The notes under the pieces are model-generated. The model saw only the letters and a list, made by a program, of their open reading frames with translations. It ran no database searches and was not told the origin of the DNA. Positions 37,819-45,062 of a DNA stretch of 64,000 nucleotides are shown one piece after another. This DNA comes from Salinibacter sp. 10B (GTDB lineage: Bacteria; Bacteroidota; Rhodothermia; Rhodothermales; Salinibacteraceae). The DNA lies in the NCBI RefSeq assembly GCF_002954405.1, contig NZ_MQWC01000004.1:996990-1060989 (forward strand), read 5' to 3'. The position numbers and the translations under genes are program-made. Numbering within the stretch: the stretch's first letter is position 1; the number at the start of each line of letters is the position of its first letter.

Positions 37819-39468
37819 ATGGCTGACCGTCAACATTTGCCTCAGGATCTTGCGTGGTATCAGGATCGATGGGAAGAGTTGATGGACCTCCTTCCAGCCA
37901 CTGACCCGGAGGAGGTCGTCGATCACATACGCGAGCTTCAGGTAAGCGTGCTCGACGAGGAGGCACAGGCACTTGACGACATGGGGCTTGCCGACGCGGA
38001 CGAGGCGAAGACTGTTCTCCGTCGTATTTTTGAGCGTCTACAGGAGCTCCGACGCAAAAACCAGAACCTCCAGCGTGCCCAAGCCGCCCTGGACGTCGCG
38101 AATCCGGACGACCTCGTGGCTCGGGTAGAATCGCTTCAAGACCGAGTGGACGCCTTTGAGGAACAGCAGGCCCAACTGGCGGATGCTGGATTTGAGGACC
38201 CCGCCCACCTTTTGGAGGCGCTCCGAAGCATGGAGGAGCAACTGAATGCCCTCTACGATGAGAAAGAGGCCACCGAACGGACGGACGACGGCACGCCATT
38301 GAACATGGAGGGCGACATATTCGAACAACTGCAGGCATTGATGGCGCGTGAGGAGAAGCTTCAGCGCGAACTGGGCGTGTCGAATCCCGATGCCGTCGTG
38401 GAAATGGTAGAAGGCCTATCCGATCAGCTTGGCGAGCTCTACCAGGACCGGGATGCCGACACAACCTCCGACTCCATCTTCGCGCCCGCCACGGCGTCAT
38501 CCCCCTCGGCAGAGGATACGCTCGAAGAGGAGTTCGGGACGTCGGACCCCGATACCCTCACCATGATGATGGAGGACCTGACCCAGCAGTTGGATGAGCT
38601 GTATGCCGAACGTGAACGCCTTGCCGAATTGGATTTGAACGGCACCGGCGATGCCGTCGAAATGGTAAAGAGCATGCAGCTTCAGCTCGAATCGCTGTAC
38701 GAGAGCCGCGAGGAGATGTCGCAGCATGGGATCAGCAATGTCGACCATGCGCTTTCCATGATCGAAAACATGGAGGAGCAGCTCAATGATCTGTACGACG
38801 AACGCCATCAACTGGCAACCGAAAAGGGCATCTCCAGTCCGGACGAAGCTCTCTCCCAGCTCGAGGCCCTGGAAGAAGAATTGTCCGCCCTGCTTGAAGA
38901 AAAGAAATCCCTCCGCGAAAAACGCGATCAGCTGGAAGCCCAGTTGAGTGCGCTGCAAGACGAGTTGGGCCTCGACGATCCCGCCGCCATCCCCGACCTC
39001 GTCCAAAGCCTGGAAGACCAACTCCAAGAGACATACGCCGAACAGGACGCTTCGGCGTCGCCCCCGGAGGCCTCCGCCGAAGAGCCGCTCCTCGACGCTG
39101 ACATCCGTGCTCGTCTCGACGACATGGACGAGGAGGCGCTGGAGGCCCTCCCAGTAGGGTTATTTCAACTGGACGACGAGGGCTCCATCCGGCATGCGAC
39201 CTCAAAGGCCCTCCAGTGGCCGGATGTGTCGGCCGCCTCGGCCGAAGCGCTCGTCGGCCAGAACTTCTTTTTCGATGTTGCTCCCGGTACCGACAACACC
39301 TTGTTCCGGGGGCGATTTTCGGATGGCGTTGCCAAGGAGGACCTGGACACGCAGTTTGCCTACACGTACGTGAGCGGGGACACGCCGCCTGCGAATCTCG
39401 TCGTCCAGCTCTACTCTTCTTCCCCTTCAACCCACTGGCTTGCGTTTGCGGTGTTGGAACAGTATTAG
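37819..39468 (+). CDS. Coiled-coil repeat protein with C-terminal cysteine-less PYP-like domain
   Basis: 549 residues, strongly acidic. Residues about 50-410 contain roughly nine degenerate copies of a 30-35-residue unit of the form G-x-x-(D/N)-P-(D/E)-x-A-x-x-M-(V/I)-x-x-(M/L)-x-x-Q-L-x-x-L-Y-x-E-R, for example GISNVDHALSMIENMEEQL. Residues about 420-549 align with photoactive yellow protein: VGLFQLDDEG, LVGQNFFFDVAPGTD, RFSDGV and TQFAYTY. Gly490 replaces the chromophore-binding Cys, so thioester attachment of p-coumarate is impossible. No signal peptide. It lies 76 bases upstream of the true PYP gene. Confidence 0.75.
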   Translation: MADRQHLPQDLAWYQDRWEELMDLLPATDPEEVVDHIRELQVSVLDEEAQALDDMGLADADEAKTVLRRIFERLQELRRKNQNLQRAQAALDVANPDDLVARVESLQDRVDAFEEQQAQLADAGFEDPAHLLEALRSMEEQLNALYDEKEATERTDDGTPLNMEGDIFEQLQALMAREEKLQRELGVSNPDAVVEMVEGLSDQLGELYQDRDADTTSDSIFAPATASSPSAEDTLEEEFGTSDPDTLTMMMEDLTQQLDELYAERERLAELDLNGTGDAVEMVKSMQLQLESLYESREEMSQHGISNVDHALSMIENMEEQLNDLYDERHQLATEKGISSPDEALSQLEALEEELSALLEEKKSLREKRDQLEAQLSALQDELGLDDPAAIPDLVQSLEDQLQETYAEQDASASPPEASAEEPLLDADIRARLDDMDEEALEALPVGLFQLDDEGSIRHATSKALQWPDVSAASAEALVGQNFFFDVAPGTDNTLFRGRFSDGVAKEDLDTQFAYTYVSGDTPPANLVVQLYSSSPSTHWLAFAVLEQY

Positions 39469-39544
39469 CATCCTTGCCAACTGCCCGCTCGCCGTACCCT
39501 CTGCCTCCACCGACTGTACTCCCCTCAAAGACTCCTTTTCTCTC

Positions 39545-40093
39545 ATGCCAGACCAAGACCCTAGCGCCGACTCTCAGGAGCCTTCCATCCTTGACACCGG
39601 AACCACTGAGCCGGCTCCAGACAGCGAGGAGACGTCTGCTCCTCCGGAATCGTCGGGTGCGCAGGCCTCTCCCTCTACCGAGGAAGCGGCGTCCCCATCG
39701 GACACCGAGCCGTCCGAAACCGACGAGCTACACTTTGAGGATGACGACCTCGCGGAAAAGCTTCGACACTCCGACGAGGACCAACTCGACAATGCTCCCT
39801 TCGGGATTATCAAGGTCGACGACGAGGGAGAGGTAGAATTCTTCAATCAGTATGAGTCGGAACTGAGTGGCATGGACCCGGAGGAGGTCCTAGGCCGCAA
39901 CTTCTTCACTCAGGTCGCGCCCTGTACAAACAATCGCCTCTTTCGAGGGCGATTTAAGAAGGGAGTGCGCCGCGGCGAGCTCGATGAGACGTTTACCTAC
40001 ACCTACACGTACAAGATGCGCCCCACACTCGTGGACGTGCACATGTATCGTGACGAGGCGGGTCACAATTGGATTACGGTGCAGAAGTACTGA
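39545..40093 (+). CDS. pyp: Photoactive yellow protein with acidic N-terminal extension
   Basis: 182 residues. Residues 1-75 are an acidic Ser/Pro/Glu extension. From residue 80 the protein aligns without gaps to Halorhodospira PYP (offset 58): FGIIKVDDEG, LGRNFFTQVAPCTNN, RFKKGV and TFTYTYTYKMRPTLVDVHM. Cys127 is the chromophore attachment site and Glu104 corresponds to Glu46. Phe100 replaces Tyr42, Ser108 replaces Thr50 and Met110 replaces Arg52, so pocket hydrogen bonding should differ. PYP binds p-coumarate as a thioester and is a blue-light sensor. The required biosynthetic genes are three and four positions upstream of the DUF427 gene, within 4.3 kb downstream. Confidence 0.93.
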   Translation: MPDQDPSADSQEPSILDTGTTEPAPDSEETSAPPESSGAQASPSTEEAASPSDTEPSETDELHFEDDDLAEKLRHSDEDQLDNAPFGIIKVDDEGEVEFFNQYESELSGMDPEEVLGRNFFTQVAPCTNNRLFRGRFKKGVRRGELDETFTYTYTYKMRPTLVDVHMYRDEAGHNWITVQKY

Positions 40094-40149
40094 GCGCCCC
40101 CTTCGACGTCCGCCTCCCCCGTGCCTTTCTTCGGACGTCCCTCAACGCC

Positions 40150-41241
40150 ATGATCAAATCTCATTCTTCTTCCCTACGGGCCCAAACCTTTTTAGAGGAG
40201 GTTCTGGAAGAATTTGACGCGTCAAGTCCAAAGGAAGCGCTTCATTTGCTCCGGCGCATGAAAGAGGTGCTCTCGGAGTACTATCAGGAGCGGAAGACCC
40301 TTCAATCCTTCGGGTTCGACGATCTCGACGATGCCCTCGATGCCATGATGGCGATGAAGCGTCGTACCGACGCGATGCAGAAGCGCCTCGACGCATACCA
40401 AGAGGCCGAGGAAAAACTGCATGCCATCCAGGATGCCCTGGACGTGGACGCCGACGCGGAGGAAACGGTGAGCACAATTGCACACATCAGTGCGCAGGTG
40501 GAAGCGCTCTATGAGGAGAAGGAAGTCCTTTCCCAGGCGGGATTGTCGGACGCCAACGAGGCCGTCCACATGATCCAGTCGATGCAGGAACGACTCGACC
40601 AGGTTGACGCCTCCCCGGAAACGGACGCTGAGGACGCGTTTGCGCTGCTGGAGCGCGAGTTGGGGGTCTCGGATCCCGAATCGGTGATTCAGATGGTTGA
40701 GAATATGGAGGAGCAAATAACCGCCAGCGTCGACCGGGAGACCAATGCCACGGGGGACAACGCCTCGTCCTCCGACTCCGCTCCCTCCAGTTCGACGGCG
40801 GTTCAGACGCTCGAACGTCAGCTCCTTGCCCTACAAGAAGGGGACGTCGACCTTGCGACCGATGAATTTGCAACCCTTCTTCCGATCGGGGTCCTACACC
40901 AGCTCGATACACACACCCCCGAACACCTGAACGCCCACGACGTCGGAATTCTCGCGGTCGACGACGATGATCGGATTCGGGCAGCGAATGACCACCACCC
41001 CTCCCTTCCCGGACTGGAAAAAGATCCCGTGGGGACGTCGTTCTTTGATCGGGTTCCAGCCTCTCGGAACCCGATGCTCCAACTGCCCCTCCAGACTGCC
41101 CGCCAAAAGGGCGTTCTCGACGCCCGGTTCTTCTACACGTTCCCTCATCCCAAAACGGACGGGACGCCCCTGCCGGTGAAGCTTCAATTTCACCGAACGG
41201 AACGGGATTCGGTGACGTGGCTTCTGTACGCTCCGCTGTAA
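40150..41241 (+). CDS. Second coiled-coil protein with C-terminal cysteine-less PYP-like domain
   Basis: 363 residues from the ATG at 40150. Residues 15-200 carry about four units of the same repeat as the 549-aa protein, for instance GLSDANEAVHMIQSMQERL and ELGVSDPESVIQMVENMEEQ. After a Ser-rich linker, residues about 260-363 form a divergent PYP-like domain: DVGILAVDDDDRI, GTSFFDRVPASRN and ARFFYTFPH. Ser305 occupies the chromophore Cys position. It starts 56 bases after pyp and shares strand and spacing with the following ligase gene. Likely a structural or signalling partner of PYP. Confidence 0.7.
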   Translation: MIKSHSSSLRAQTFLEEVLEEFDASSPKEALHLLRRMKEVLSEYYQERKTLQSFGFDDLDDALDAMMAMKRRTDAMQKRLDAYQEAEEKLHAIQDALDVDADAEETVSTIAHISAQVEALYEEKEVLSQAGLSDANEAVHMIQSMQERLDQVDASPETDAEDAFALLERELGVSDPESVIQMVENMEEQITASVDRETNATGDNASSSDSAPSSSTAVQTLERQLLALQEGDVDLATDEFATLLPIGVLHQLDTHTPEHLNAHDVGILAVDDDDRIRAANDHHPSLPGLEKDPVGTSFFDRVPASRNPMLQLPLQTARQKGVLDARFFYTFPHPKTDGTPLPVKLQFHRTERDSVTWLLYAPL

Positions 41242-41295
41242 CACATTCCCTCACAGCTCTTCTCCCCTCCCTAAACGCTCCTCGTTCCTCTCTCG

Positions 41296-42843
41296 ATGCG
41301 GTCCAACGGCTTTCCAACATCCTCGCCTTCTCCCCAATCCTCGGGGACTGCTACGTCTGGGGCCGTCGTACGAGCAGTGCAAACCGCTCTCGATCAGTGC
41401 CCTCGCTCTGGGGACGGGGCTTCGCTCGATGTCAATCCCTGGCACGACCTTCTGTACAACCGACTGCGGGATGAGGCCCTTCCTGCTCTCATTTACGACG
41501 ACACCATTACCCCCGCTGCGTCGCTCTGGACCGGCTCTCGCCTCTGGACGCAGGCCTTTCGGTCGACGTCTCTCCAGGCTGGGGATCGTCTCGTGATTGC
41601 CCTCCCGCCGTCCACGGCGTTCGTACAGGTGCTGGTGGCCGCTCTCTGGGAGGGATATACCGTTGCCCTTGCCCCGCACAATGCGAACGTTCCCGACCTC
41701 CTCACCACCCTTGAGGCCCGAGCGGCCGTGACGACCGACGCGGTCGAGGCTCCTCACACGTTTATCTCGGAAGAATACGCTGGTCCCCGGTCGACCCCCG
41801 ATACCCTTCGGTCCCCAGACACCTCTCCGACTCCGAACGTGCGATTTTTACTTCGTACGTCGGGAACCACGGCCCATGCACGCTGGATTGCCCTCTCCGA
41901 TCGAAACGTGCTCTCGGTGCTGGCGAGCCATCTTCCCCACTTTGCCCTCCACGATGCCCGCGTGCTCTCCGTGTTGCCCTGGACGCACGCCTTCGGTCTC
42001 GTCCTCGACTTCTTCCCTGCCCTTTTGTCGGGTGCCGAGCTCATTCGGGATCCAAATGGCGGGAGAAACCCCGAACACCTACTGCAACTGCGCAACGCCT
42101 GGGGTGCCACCCATCTGTCGGCCGTGCCCCTCGTCATCCAGCGGCTCATTGACACCGCCGGGGGAGAGGCCCTGCTGCGCGACCTAAACGGCGGCCTGGT
42201 AGGGGGCGCCCCCGTATCCGGCCCTCTCGCCAAACGTCTTTCTCGTACGGCACTGCGCGCCGGCTACGGCCAAACGGAGGCAGCTCCGGGCATCGCGATG
42301 GGTCCGCCTGGCAAATGGGCCGCCCACTACCTGGGCCGCCCCGTGGGCTGTTCGGTCGAGGTGGCCGACGATGGGGAGTTGCTCTTCGAAGGCCCGAACG
42401 CCTGCGTCGGCGTGTGGAAGAACGGGCGGCTAGAACGGGCTGCCCCTGACCGCACCGTCCACACCGGGGACCTCGTCGAACGCTCCGGAGATGACCTGTA
42501 TTTTCGGGGACGCAAGGATGACAGTTTTAAGTTGTCGAATGGGCGTTGGGTACAGGCCGGCGCAATGGAGGCCGCTCTCAAAACCTCGTTCCCCGACCTG
42601 CGCGACGCCCTCGTCTTTACCCCGAACGGGGACGACGTCGCTGTGGCCCTGTGTCCCGCCGCCCCCTCCGCAACTCTTCCCTCGGACGAGGACTATCGTG
42701 CCGCCCTCGGGTCCCTGGCCGAACGACTCGTGTGGACGACCACAATTGCCCCTGAGGCATGGTCTACCCTCCCGAAAGGGACGGTGGACCGGAGCACGAT
42801 GACGAAGGCGCTCACCGAAGCGTATCAATCTTCGTCTTCCTAA
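41296..42843 (+). CDS. AMP-forming CoA ligase, probable p-coumarate:CoA ligase for PYP chromophore
   Basis: 515 residues of the acyl-adenylate superfamily. Core motifs are LLRTSGTTAHARWIALS (A3), GYGQTEAAPG (A5) and HTGDLVERSGDDLYFRGRKDD (A7). At A10, where adenylating enzymes have GK(V/I)DR with a catalytic Lys, this protein reads GTVDR with Thr496. Context supports p-coumarate activation: PYP upstream and tyrosine ammonia-lyase 37 bases downstream. The missing Lys raises the question of whether adenylation is slow or uses another residue. Fatty-acid or other aryl acids are alternatives. Confidence 0.72.
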   Translation: MRSNGFPTSSPSPQSSGTATSGAVVRAVQTALDQCPRSGDGASLDVNPWHDLLYNRLRDEALPALIYDDTITPAASLWTGSRLWTQAFRSTSLQAGDRLVIALPPSTAFVQVLVAALWEGYTVALAPHNANVPDLLTTLEARAAVTTDAVEAPHTFISEEYAGPRSTPDTLRSPDTSPTPNVRFLLRTSGTTAHARWIALSDRNVLSVLASHLPHFALHDARVLSVLPWTHAFGLVLDFFPALLSGAELIRDPNGGRNPEHLLQLRNAWGATHLSAVPLVIQRLIDTAGGEALLRDLNGGLVGGAPVSGPLAKRLSRTALRAGYGQTEAAPGIAMGPPGKWAAHYLGRPVGCSVEVADDGELLFEGPNACVGVWKNGRLERAAPDRTVHTGDLVERSGDDLYFRGRKDDSFKLSNGRWVQAGAMEAALKTSFPDLRDALVFTPNGDDVAVALCPAAPSATLPSDEDYRAALGSLAERLVWTTTIAPEAWSTLPKGTVDRSTMTKALTEAYQSSSS

Positions 42844-42880
42844 CGCTCCCTCGAGTCCCCTTCTTCGTCTGCCTCGCTGT

Positions 42881-44368
42881 ATGTCTTCTTCTCTCTCTAT
42901 CGGCCCCGATGTCACGCTCTCGTGCGAGGCGCTCGACCGAGGGGCTCAGACGCCCGGCCTCTCGGTTCACCCAACGGAGGCAGCAGACCGCGCCCTCCAG
43001 CACGCCCGTTCTGCCCTAACCCACCTTCGTGACGAGGAAACGCCAATCTATGGCGTTACGACTGGGTTCGGCCCCCTTCACGAACACGAGGCAAACACCG
43101 ACGATGCGGTTGCGCAGGGCACGGGCCTGATTGCTCACCTCGCGACCGGTAGTGGGGACGCGCTCCCCCGCCCCGTCGTGCGGGCCTTGATTGTTGCCCG
43201 CCTCCAATCGCTCGCACAGGGACACTCTGCCATCCGTCCGGATGCGTTTGACGCCGTTGCGGACCTCTTACGCCACGACGTGATCCCAGCCGTTCCCGAA
43301 ATCGGATCCTTGGGCGCCAGTGGCGACCTCACCCCGCTGGCTCACGTGGCGCGGGTCTGTACGGGAGAGGGACGGGTCCTAACGGATAGCGGCGAGATTC
43401 AGGATGCGGGGGAAGCACTCCGTACCGCTCAGCTCTCCCCGGTCTCCCTTGACGCCCGCGACGCGCTTGCCCTCGTCAATGGAACCGCACTCATGACTGG
43501 GGCCGCGGCTCTGGCGGTGGCTCGGGGGCAACGCCTTCTCGAACGCGCCGAGGCCCTTACCGGCTGGATGTACCGGCTGCTGGGCTGCTCATTGGACCCG
43601 CTCGATGCCCGTCTCCACGATGCCCGAGGACATGATGGCCAGTCAGCAAGCGCGGCGGCCATCCGTGCAGAAGCCACCCGCCATGGTCCCGCCGAGCATG
43701 AGGACCGTCCCCTCCAGGAGGTGTATTCGCTGCGCTGTGCCCCCCAGATTCTCGGCGCAATCCGCGATCAGCTCTCGTATGTTCGTCAACAGGTCGAAAC
43801 CGAATTGAATGGGGTGACCGACAATCCAGTGATCGCCCCGGACGCCCCTGCCGTGCTTCACGGCGGCAACTTTCAAGGACAGCAGGTCGCCTTTGCGGCC
43901 GATGCCCTCAACGAAGCCCTGACCCAAATGGGCGTGCTAGCGGAACGACAGGTCGACGTCCTTCTCACTCCCGACCAGAACGGAGGGGCCCCCCCGCTTC
44001 TCGCCTGGAATCCCGGCCCCACAAGCGGGCTTGCCGGAGCGCAACTTACGGCCACAGCCCTCGTGGCCGAACTGCGACAAAACGCTCAGATGACGGGCAC
44101 ATCCTCGATCCCCACCAATGGCGACAACCAGGATGTCGTCTCGATGGGCGCTCTCGCCGCCCGTACCGCCCACGAGCAGACCGAGCACCTGGCATCCATT
44201 CTCGCTGTGCTGGGCCTTGCCCTATCTCAACTCACTCACCTGCGTGCAGAGGGGCAGGCAAAGGGACCTGCCCCACCGTCCCCCGACTGGATGCCCTCTA
44301 TCGATCCGGTGGTGGAGGACCGATCCCTCCACGCGGAAATTGAGGCCCTCGCGGCTCAGTGGGTGTAG
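42881..44368 (+). CDS. Tyrosine ammonia-lyase (MIO-type aromatic amino acid lyase)
   Basis: 495 residues. The MIO prosthetic group triad Ala146-Ser147-Gly148 lies in GSLGASGDLTPLAH. The substrate-selectivity doublet is His86-Leu87 (LIAHLATG), the His-Leu pair found in tyrosine-specific lyases, in contrast to Ser-His in histidine lyases. YGVTTGFG, GNFQGQQVA and SIPTNGDNQDVVSMG are also present. It deaminates tyrosine to p-coumarate. Next to the ligase and PYP this completes chromophore supply. A HutH function is unlikely because no other hut gene is nearby. Confidence 0.88.
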   Translation: MSSSLSIGPDVTLSCEALDRGAQTPGLSVHPTEAADRALQHARSALTHLRDEETPIYGVTTGFGPLHEHEANTDDAVAQGTGLIAHLATGSGDALPRPVVRALIVARLQSLAQGHSAIRPDAFDAVADLLRHDVIPAVPEIGSLGASGDLTPLAHVARVCTGEGRVLTDSGEIQDAGEALRTAQLSPVSLDARDALALVNGTALMTGAAALAVARGQRLLERAEALTGWMYRLLGCSLDPLDARLHDARGHDGQSASAAAIRAEATRHGPAEHEDRPLQEVYSLRCAPQILGAIRDQLSYVRQQVETELNGVTDNPVIAPDAPAVLHGGNFQGQQVAFAADALNEALTQMGVLAERQVDVLLTPDQNGGAPPLLAWNPGPTSGLAGAQLTATALVAELRQNAQMTGTSSIPTNGDNQDVVSMGALAARTAHEQTEHLASILAVLGLALSQLTHLRAEGQAKGPAPPSPDWMPSIDPVVEDRSLHAEIEALAAQWV

Positions 44369-44564: not shown

Positions 44565-45062
44565 TTGCCCATGCCCACCCGTTCCGCCCCCGGCCCCGGC
44601 CAGGAATCCGTCTGGGACTATCCACGCCCCCCGGCCCTAGACCCATGCGACCAACGCGTCCGGGTCGTCTTCAACAATATCACGATTGCGGATACCACCG
44701 ATGCGCTACGGGTGCTGGAAACGAGTCATCCGCCGGTCTACTATCTGCCGCCTGCCGACGTGGCGATGAAGTACCTAACGCAGGAGAATCGAACCACGAT
44801 GTGCGAATTCAAAGGTCGGGCGGTGTACTACACGCTTCAGGTGGATGAGCGCTCGGCAGCCCAGGCCGCGTGGGGCTATCCGTCTCCTACCGACCGGTTT
44901 CAGGCGCTCAAGGATCACCTTGCGTTCTATGCGAGCAAGATGGACGCCTGCTACGTGGGGGAGAAACAGGCCCACGCCCAAGAGGGAGACTTCTACGGGG
45001 GGTGGATCACCGACGACATTGTAGGACCATTCAAGGGAGGACCGGGAACGGTAGGATGGTGA
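44565..45062 (+). CDS. DUF427 domain protein
   Basis: 165 residues; ATG at 44565 or 44571. It has the family landmarks ESVWDYPRPP, VLETSHPPVYYLPPADV, CEFKGRAVYYTL, HLAFYASKMDACYVG and GGWITDDIVGPFKGGPGT. Function of the family is not established. It is separated from the lyase gene by about 200 bases, so membership in the PYP operon is uncertain. Confidence 0.9.
   Translation: MPMPTRSAPGPGQESVWDYPRPPALDPCDQRVRVVFNNITIADTTDALRVLETSHPPVYYLPPADVAMKYLTQENRTTMCEFKGRAVYYTLQVDERSAAQAAWGYPSPTDRFQALKDHLAFYASKMDACYVGEKQAHAQEGDFYGGWITDDIVGPFKGGPGTVGW

Follow-up and report, generated by a model that had tools for sequence, protein, structure and literature searches.

A coiled-coil unit and a small helical protein family as candidate partners of photoactive yellow protein, traced from a Salinibacter locus with blind PYP domains

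Photoactive yellow protein (PYP), a blue-light sensor, is among the best studied photoreceptors. According to PMC9664959 its signalling partner has not been identified, and PMC12826048 sees a knowledge gap in its signal chain; these papers and PMC2993699 are cited throughout from parts of their text. To what, then, could PYP pass its signal? A locus of the salt-loving Salinibacter sp. 10B raises this question, and we studied it in a window of 64,000 nucleotides (contig NZ_MQWC01000004.1, positions 996,990 to 1,060,989). Five open reading frames (ORFs) on one strand at 37819-44368, seen in the ORF listing and the sequence and separated in order by gaps of 76, 56, 54 and 37 bp, encode a PYP, putative chromophore-supplying enzymes and, on each side of pyp, a coiled-coil protein (CC1 and CC3) ending in a PYP-like domain without the chromophore site (PYP*). 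The original prediction had described these five co-directional genes as a module in which light-driven changes in PYP would be relayed to the coiled-coil partners in mixed-fold complexes. The gene layout is confirmed and the partnership is plausible, but the five-gene order is not conserved: the wider conservation lies in a coil unit (CC) found beside pyp in other phyla and in a second protein family, here called F0. The explanation that we favour, and hold to be probable, is that CC and F0 are dedicated partners linking this clade of PYPs to chemosensory-type signalling, and that in Salinibacteraceae, the window family, a decoy PYP was added and the coil units were multiplied. Below, the window locus is locus I; at a second locus of the same genome (locus II) a coiled-coil protein of 1019 aa, also ending in a PYP-like domain, precedes a second PYP. 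L and G numbers denote sampled locus stretches and genomes.

The coil of CC1 and CC3 is a tandem expansion of a unit of about 50 residues, which elsewhere is a microprotein adjoining pyp. Microproteins of 57-84 aa encoded directly upstream of pyp outside Salinibacteraceae match the coils, and from nine such proteins outside the family we built a hidden Markov model (HMM) of the unit. Among 9177 ORFs of 78 loci it gave 54 matches at E <= 10, the nine training ORFs included, as well as several loci that are duplicates. Every match is a CC-PYP* protein, a CC3 protein, a CC-PYP fusion or an ORF next to pyp, except in L021, where about 4 kb separate the match from pyp. Up to 16 HMM domains were counted per protein, weak ones included. 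The unit score of CC1 was 143.9 bits, against maxima of 11.8 bits in 2000 heptad-register shuffles and 7.1 bits in 2000 plain shuffles. A search of the PDB gave no significant match (best E 0.26), and the CC microproteins reached no curated cut-off (four tested against Pfam, two against NCBIfam). Resemblances of the coil to JIP_LZII and to SMC- or Rad50-like models stayed below cut-off, and we read them as generic coiled-coil likeness.

How closely does CC follow PYP from genome to genome? Of the 26 whole genomes from which distant pyp loci came, 20 matched CC at E <= 0.01 and six gave no match. The ten strongest of the 20 are the ten profile rows, with no other match within each; eight further genomes match at an ORF already known near pyp, and the weak matches in G046 and G049 (E about 0.01) fall outside known pyp-side ORFs. 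In Spirochaetota, 22 of the 296 genomes have PYP (E <= 1e-15). CC (E <= 1e-3) was found in 15 of these 22 and in 0 of the 274 without PYP, all 19 CC places lying within about 600 bp of pyp. Fisher's test gives p values of 3e-20 and, when the three profile-row genomes are left out, 8e-17, values that are indicative only because the genomes are related yet counted as independent. G240 has two PYPs with CC downstream of one; in G142 (L226, 6289-7950), a tandem CC-PYP-CC-PYP is seen in which each PYP gene is preceded by its own CC.

The same association appears on a quick PYP tree (168 rows, 124 columns, many forks open), from which fragments and duplicates were removed by hand (L054, L055, L097, L099, L150, L153) and, by rule, domains of <85 residues and PYP* matches above E 1e-10 (G013, G014, G020 CC3). 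One clade of 66 PYPs (SH-aLRT 89), the CC clade, has 50 members with adjoining CC and three with fused CC. Outside Salinibacteraceae, CC is adjacent or fused in 33 of the 35 sampled PYPs of this clade; the two exceptions are L021, mentioned above, and L135, which has a diverged coil (E 0.08). Beyond the clade CC was found for 2 of 79 PYPs (L035, L195), many of the 79 having been examined with only about 1.5 kb per side; L194, of the same small group as these two, has a CC gene in divergent orientation. L035 (G045) is labelled Candidatus Hydrogenedens and grouped with the phylum of the Myxococcaceae-labelled L031, so the labels of metagenome-assembled genomes may mismatch the grouping.

The second family, F0, consists of helical proteins of about 140 aa that recur beside CC-clade pyp genes. 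Its HMM, built from members outside Salinibacteraceae, matched 40 of 16401 ORFs at E <= 0.01, 24 of which are neither training rows nor duplicates. At locus II, F0 is a small gene with terC on one side and the CC or PYP gene on the other, also in genomes with a lone PYP, and one match (L112) adjoins an orphan CC-PYP* gene. Within Salinibacteraceae, F0 is present as one copy in exactly the 19 PYP genomes (19/19) and in 0 of the 8 PYP-less ones, which are mostly incomplete (56-90%); in G013 and G014 it lies on a separate contig, at least 30 kb from pyp. Among the 296 Spirochaetota genomes F0 occurs in 13, all within the 22 with PYP, and is unlinked from pyp in G092. The F0 model (pLDDT 89.4, pTM 0.79) has six helices. 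Foldseek gave nothing above noise for it (best E 0.31), and the best VIA match, to a helical chaperone, had a Z of 8.3, a level common for helical proteins; F0 may still have a known fold. Single-domain F0 proteins match no Pfam or NCBIfam family above curated cut-off, and F0 fusions match Pfam only in their kinase or CheW parts. As a side observation, the F0 proteins of L026, L027 and L029 share a short tail of the type DGxxITIxGxxKIxVRK, and the CC proteins of the same three loci and of L145 end in a similar one.

Natural fusions join these families to one another and to signalling domains. CC is fused to PYP in L028, L030 and L032, all outside the window family and all retaining Tyr, Glu and Cys at the chromophore site. 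Directly upstream of the fusions in L030 and L032, F0 forms the C-terminus of CheA-like kinases (with Hpt and HATPase domains in L030, and in L032 with a clear HATPase domain and an Hpt match below cut-off). F0 precedes a CheW domain in L033, and in G240 it is fused to two CC units. In a scan of 30 chosen neighbours, chemosensory genes were found near CC-PYP in 13 of 37 loci: genes for methyl-accepting chemotaxis proteins (MCPs) in eight (L017, L018, L031, L034, L222, L225, L228, L239), CheA-like genes in four (L021, L028, L030, L032) and a CheW gene in one (L033). The other scanned neighbours included a cyclase, transporters and a methyltransferase.

What, then, are the PYP-like domains on either side of pyp? 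The chromophore cysteine, Cys69, is the criterion that defines the PYP family in PMC9664959. Aligned with the Halorhodospira halophila protein, the window PYP has this residue as Cys127, in keeping with the prediction of a true PYP with Cys127. Glu46 corresponds to Glu104, and Tyr42 to Phe100; Phe replaces Tyr42 in about 9% of PYP homologs (PMC9664959). The match of the window PYP to NCBIfam TIGR02373, a model covering about 20% of PYP homologs (PMC9664959), reaches 121 bits (E 3e-35), under the curated cut-off of 143.05 bits; we class it as a PYP despite this score because of Cys69 and the overall homology. The C-termini of CC1 and CC3 have Gly and Ala, respectively, at the Cys69 position, and because the cysteine is absent we class them as PYP-like. 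For the CC1 domain, homology to PYP shows both in a comparison with solved PYP sequences (best E 1.1e-15) and with the NCBIfam PYP model (E 1.1e-16, under the curated cut-off). For the CC3 domain, a single-sequence search gave no significant match (best E 0.11); a profile of the family's free PYPs, however, picks up the L010 ortholog (E 8.9e-8). The model of the window CC3 (71.8 pLDDT and pTM 0.40 for the whole protein) predicts a confident C-terminal PAS/PYP fold with blocks from residue 241 at pLDDT 74-94, and Foldseek ranks PYP structures as most similar to it (7spx, E 2.8e-7, TM by target 0.81), an agreement that is not independent of the sequence evidence because the alignment behind the model included PYPs. 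Judged by homology and modelling, both flanking C-termini carry a real PYP fold, and both have lost positions 42, 46 and 69, as the prediction of chromophore-less homologues on coiled-coil neighbours had it; the absence of the fold from the models had been named as grounds for abandoning that prediction.

Loss of the site is general in the family. In none of the 25 PYP* rows (11 of CC1 type, 12 of large-CC type and 2 CC3) is position 42 Tyr or Phe, position 46 Glu or position 69 Cys; in 20 of them the CC1 or large-CC protein is encoded immediately before an intact PYP. Free PYPs flagged with an adjoining CC keep Cys69 in 52 of 52 cases. On the tree, 22 PYP* rows make up one side of a branch (SH-aLRT 99), the CC3 branch being very long. 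Ratios of nonsynonymous to synonymous substitution against the nearest relative, L010, are 0.03-0.18, and all parts look constrained; these values are rough because synonymous sites are near saturation. In five Gemmatimonadota stretches (L178, L184, L185, L189, L190), PYP-like domains with Ser for Cys69 were also noticed, two of them with Cys at 42.

PYP is present in 19 of 27 Salinibacteraceae genomes, at locus I in 12 and at locus II in 17. CC1 stands directly before the locus-I PYP in 10 of 12 (it is absent there in G005 and G006) and CC3 after it in only 2 of 12 (G000, the window genome, and G020), while both enzymes are found at locus I in nine, the ligase only in G023, and contigs end in G004 and G006. 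At locus II a large CC protein accompanies PYP in 10 of 17; the seven locus-II PYPs without an adjoining coiled coil (G011, G012, G015, G016, G018, G021, G022) contradict the strict claim that pyp always has its flanking genes, and these counts led us to reject the five-gene order as a fixed unit. Eleven Salinibacteraceae rows of the tree were marked as lacking CC: L095 is an ORF-edge artefact with CC present, L086_15500 and L087_8729 are second tandem copies, and the rest are the locus-I PYPs of G005 and G006 and six lone locus-II PYPs.

In the lone-PYP genomes, locus II keeps terC, F0 and PYP, and the large CC protein is gone. Locus I of G012, G015 and G016 retains a CC stub, the ligase, the DUF427 gene and the following genes, with no match there to PYP, PYP*, CC3 or lyase; in G021 the contig ends within the ligase, and G018 keeps CC-PYP* and the ligase, with PYP absent. 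The lone state is thus probably derived. In G015 and G016 the lone PYP has 156 aa, and the partner genes are lost or about 185 kb away. This length fits the 31-residue extension of the PYP of Salinibacter ruber, and G015 and G016 are presumably this species or its sister; if so, partner loss may explain that species' lone PYP. The two loci differ at position 42, where 11 of 12 PYPs of locus I have Phe and 16 of 20 of locus II have Tyr; this suggests different spectral tuning. Of additional note, a photolyase-related gene (PF04244, E 8e-70) lies at L009 2665-4296, about 3 kb from the second CC-PYP locus of the window genome; G023 has two extra CC-PYP* genes without an adjoining PYP (L111, L112), its sole F0 being near the L112 copy; and L099 (G017, at a contig end) has a PYP-like match over two frames with a weak coil match, either a fragment or an assembly error. 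A response regulator beside locus II (Response_reg and Trans_reg_C) was considered as an output and dropped because none stands at that place in eight other locus-II stretches.

Based on the observed gene order, homology, co-occurrence, fusions and loss of the chromophore site, we propose a light-signalling module, so far without a name, whose core in several phyla would be PYP, an adjoining small CC and F0. The route through tyrosine ammonia-lyase (TAL) and p-coumaroyl-CoA ligase (pCL) to the p-coumaroyl-CoA chromophore is known for other PYPs, and the two enzymes here would likewise make p-coumaroyl-CoA, which would load Cys127. Blue light would alter the surface of PYP, and CC bound to PYP would read the change; CC would then act on F0, as the natural fusions suggest. 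F0 may itself be part of, or close to, a chemosensory machinery of CheA-type kinases, the CheW domain and chemoreceptors, which would be the output. In Salinibacteraceae, copies of the CC unit would have accumulated and been fused to a second copy of PYP, which lost the chromophore site but remained under selection. PYP* would most likely pair with PYP or fill a PYP docking place: one scaffold would thus bear live and blind PYP domains. A bolder form of this scheme makes the coil of CC1 and of the 1019-aa protein a light antenna with one PYP docked per unit, as on the one-unit microprotein of other phyla, and PYP* a blind subunit fixing the resting state, F0 relaying the summed state to a CheA-type kinase, so that the whole would be the PYP counterpart of a chemoreceptor array; we regard this form as tentative and would sooner doubt it than assume it.

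Several observations weigh against CC and F0 as dedicated partners in a chemosensory link. CC was not found (E <= 1e-3) in the PYP genomes G011 and G022, and it is an unlinked stub in G012, G015, G016 and G021. F0 was not found in 9 of the 22 Spirochaetota PYP genomes, three of which have CC (G100, G246, G255), and its co-occurrence with PYP in Salinibacteraceae is softened because of the incomplete PYP-less genomes. The tree is a quick one with few columns, and the CC clade has an SH-aLRT of 89. The chemosensory count has no background rate, and no MCP, CheA or CheW gene was recognised at the two loci of the window genome, the rest of which was not searched.

Other explanations of the same facts have to be weighed. 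CC could be a maturation factor that holds apo-PYP or aids loading by the ligase, PYP* being a docking mimic without a signalling role. The CC stub adjoins pCL in G012, G015, G016 and G021 though PYP is elsewhere, and CC-PYP* of G018 adjoins pCL without PYP, as such a factor might; however, several microprotein loci have no window-like ligase or lyase match in the sampled stretches (for example L018, L020, L022, L023, L024, L025), and the fusions of F0 to CheA-type kinases and to CC would be left unexplained, which makes a maturation role unlikely. The long, repetitive coil of Salinibacteraceae, with its up to 16 HMM domains, and a PYP* that retains its fold with the chromophore site gone would also suit a structural scaffold or store that places PYP, for instance at a pole or locally concentrated, and passes no signal, F0 being the sole relay. 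Against this, the one-unit microproteins of 57-84 aa are too small to carry many PYPs, and G240 has F0 and CC in one protein; we think a mere scaffold improbable.

Since PAS-type folds bind many ligands and PYP* is under purifying selection, PYP* might instead be an independent sensor of another ligand, placed beside PYP by duplication only. PYP* is nevertheless always carried on the coil that elsewhere accompanies PYP, and usually, in 20 of 25 rows, lies directly upstream of an intact PYP, so that we give an independent sensor little credence. Lastly, CC, F0 and pyp might travel together merely as an inherited cluster without joint function: related genomes share clusters by descent, the association is partly linkage, and our p values treat genomes as independent. 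Yet F0 accompanies PYP even when unlinked (G013, G014, G092), the placement of CC varies (upstream, downstream, divergent, fused) and fusions arose in several lineages; co-inheritance of this kind is, in our judgement, very unlikely.

How do CC and F0 relate to PYP systems already described? In the pyp-pCL-TAL operon of H. halophila, as in the window, the ligase and lyase genes follow PYP (PMC12826048). The operon section of that paper does not describe coiled-coil or blind-PYP genes, the term "coiled-coil" being counted once in the text, with its context not located; on our tree, the H. halophila PYP falls outside the CC clade. Clade B of PMC9664959, for which Leptospira and Salinibacter are named, is the same group as ours with the same chemotaxis link, the Leptospira PYPs adjoining chemoreceptors that lack sensory domains; in the available part of that account, a coiled-coil gene, F0, the F0-CheA and F0-CC fusions and the blind PYP of Salinibacteraceae are not mentioned. 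The Ppr PYPs of methylobacteria also have a PYP domain whose Cys69 is substituted (PMC9664959). In contrast to these, PYP* of Salinibacteraceae has lost 42, 46 and 69 alike, lies C-terminal to a coil and usually has an intact PYP encoded next door. Ppr of Rhodocista centenaria likewise ties a PYP protein to chemotaxis proteins, the histidine kinase domain of this fusion protein binding CheW (PMC2993699), whereas the PYPs here are single-domain and CC and F0 are the proposed links. The chemotaxis link of PYP as such is therefore already known. In the literature searched, with main texts covered in part so that an earlier mention is possible, there was no account of CC or F0. The coil unit is a candidate for the missing signalling partner of PYP, and the two PYP-tracking families with their fusions (PYP-CC, CC-F0, F0-CheA-type kinase) reduce the partner question to a short test list. 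The Salinibacteraceae variant would be a natural example of a photoreceptor whose duplicate became a blind partner.

The features of the window locus are collected in Table 1. The original prediction had the two enzymes make p-coumaroyl-CoA from tyrosine: the lyase and ligase families are confirmed, and tyrosine and p-coumarate remain putative substrates, taken from context. The TAL candidate has an Ala-Ser-Gly cofactor segment that aligns with lyases and aminomutases; its nearest solved relatives are tyrosine aminomutases (E 7e-84), followed by entry 2o6y (1.8e-79). For the pCL candidate, a close relative was not found in the comparison with solved structures.

Table 1. Positions of the locus-I features in the window.
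Feature	Position	Strand	Basis or remark
CC1, coiled-coil protein with C-terminal chromophore-less PYP domain (PYP*), 549 aa	37819..39468	+	ORF, unit HMM, PYP homology
Coil units of CC1, domain E <0.01 (span 38176..39048; units 38653-38805 and 38743-38904 overlap)	38176-38268, 38317-38454, 38518-38616, 38653-38805, 38743-38904, 38950-39048	+	profile A1 search
PYP* domain of CC1	39094..39468	+	Ala, Ala, Gly at the Tyr42, Glu46, Cys69 positions
PYP, 182 aa, acidic N-terminal extension of ~60 residues	39545..40093	+	ORF, domain matches, alignment
Codon of Cys127, equivalent of the chromophore cysteine	39923..39925	+	sequence, alignment
CC3, coiled-coil protein with C-terminal PYP* domain, 363 aa	40150..41241	+	ORF, unit HMM 62.1 bits, structure model
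PYP* domain of CC3	40885..41241	+	Ala, His, Ala at the Tyr42, Glu46, Cys69 positions
AMP-forming CoA ligase, putative p-coumaroyl-CoA ligase (pCL)	41296..42843	+	PF00501 E 2e-27; substrate from context
Aromatic amino acid ammonia-lyase, putative tyrosine ammonia-lyase (TAL)	42881..44368	+	PF00221 E 1e-135; substrate inferred
DUF427 gene, conserved locus-I neighbour	44565..45062	+	PF04248 E 2e-35; synteny

Even in a locus I that has lost PYP, the DUF427 gene still follows the ligase or lyase gene.

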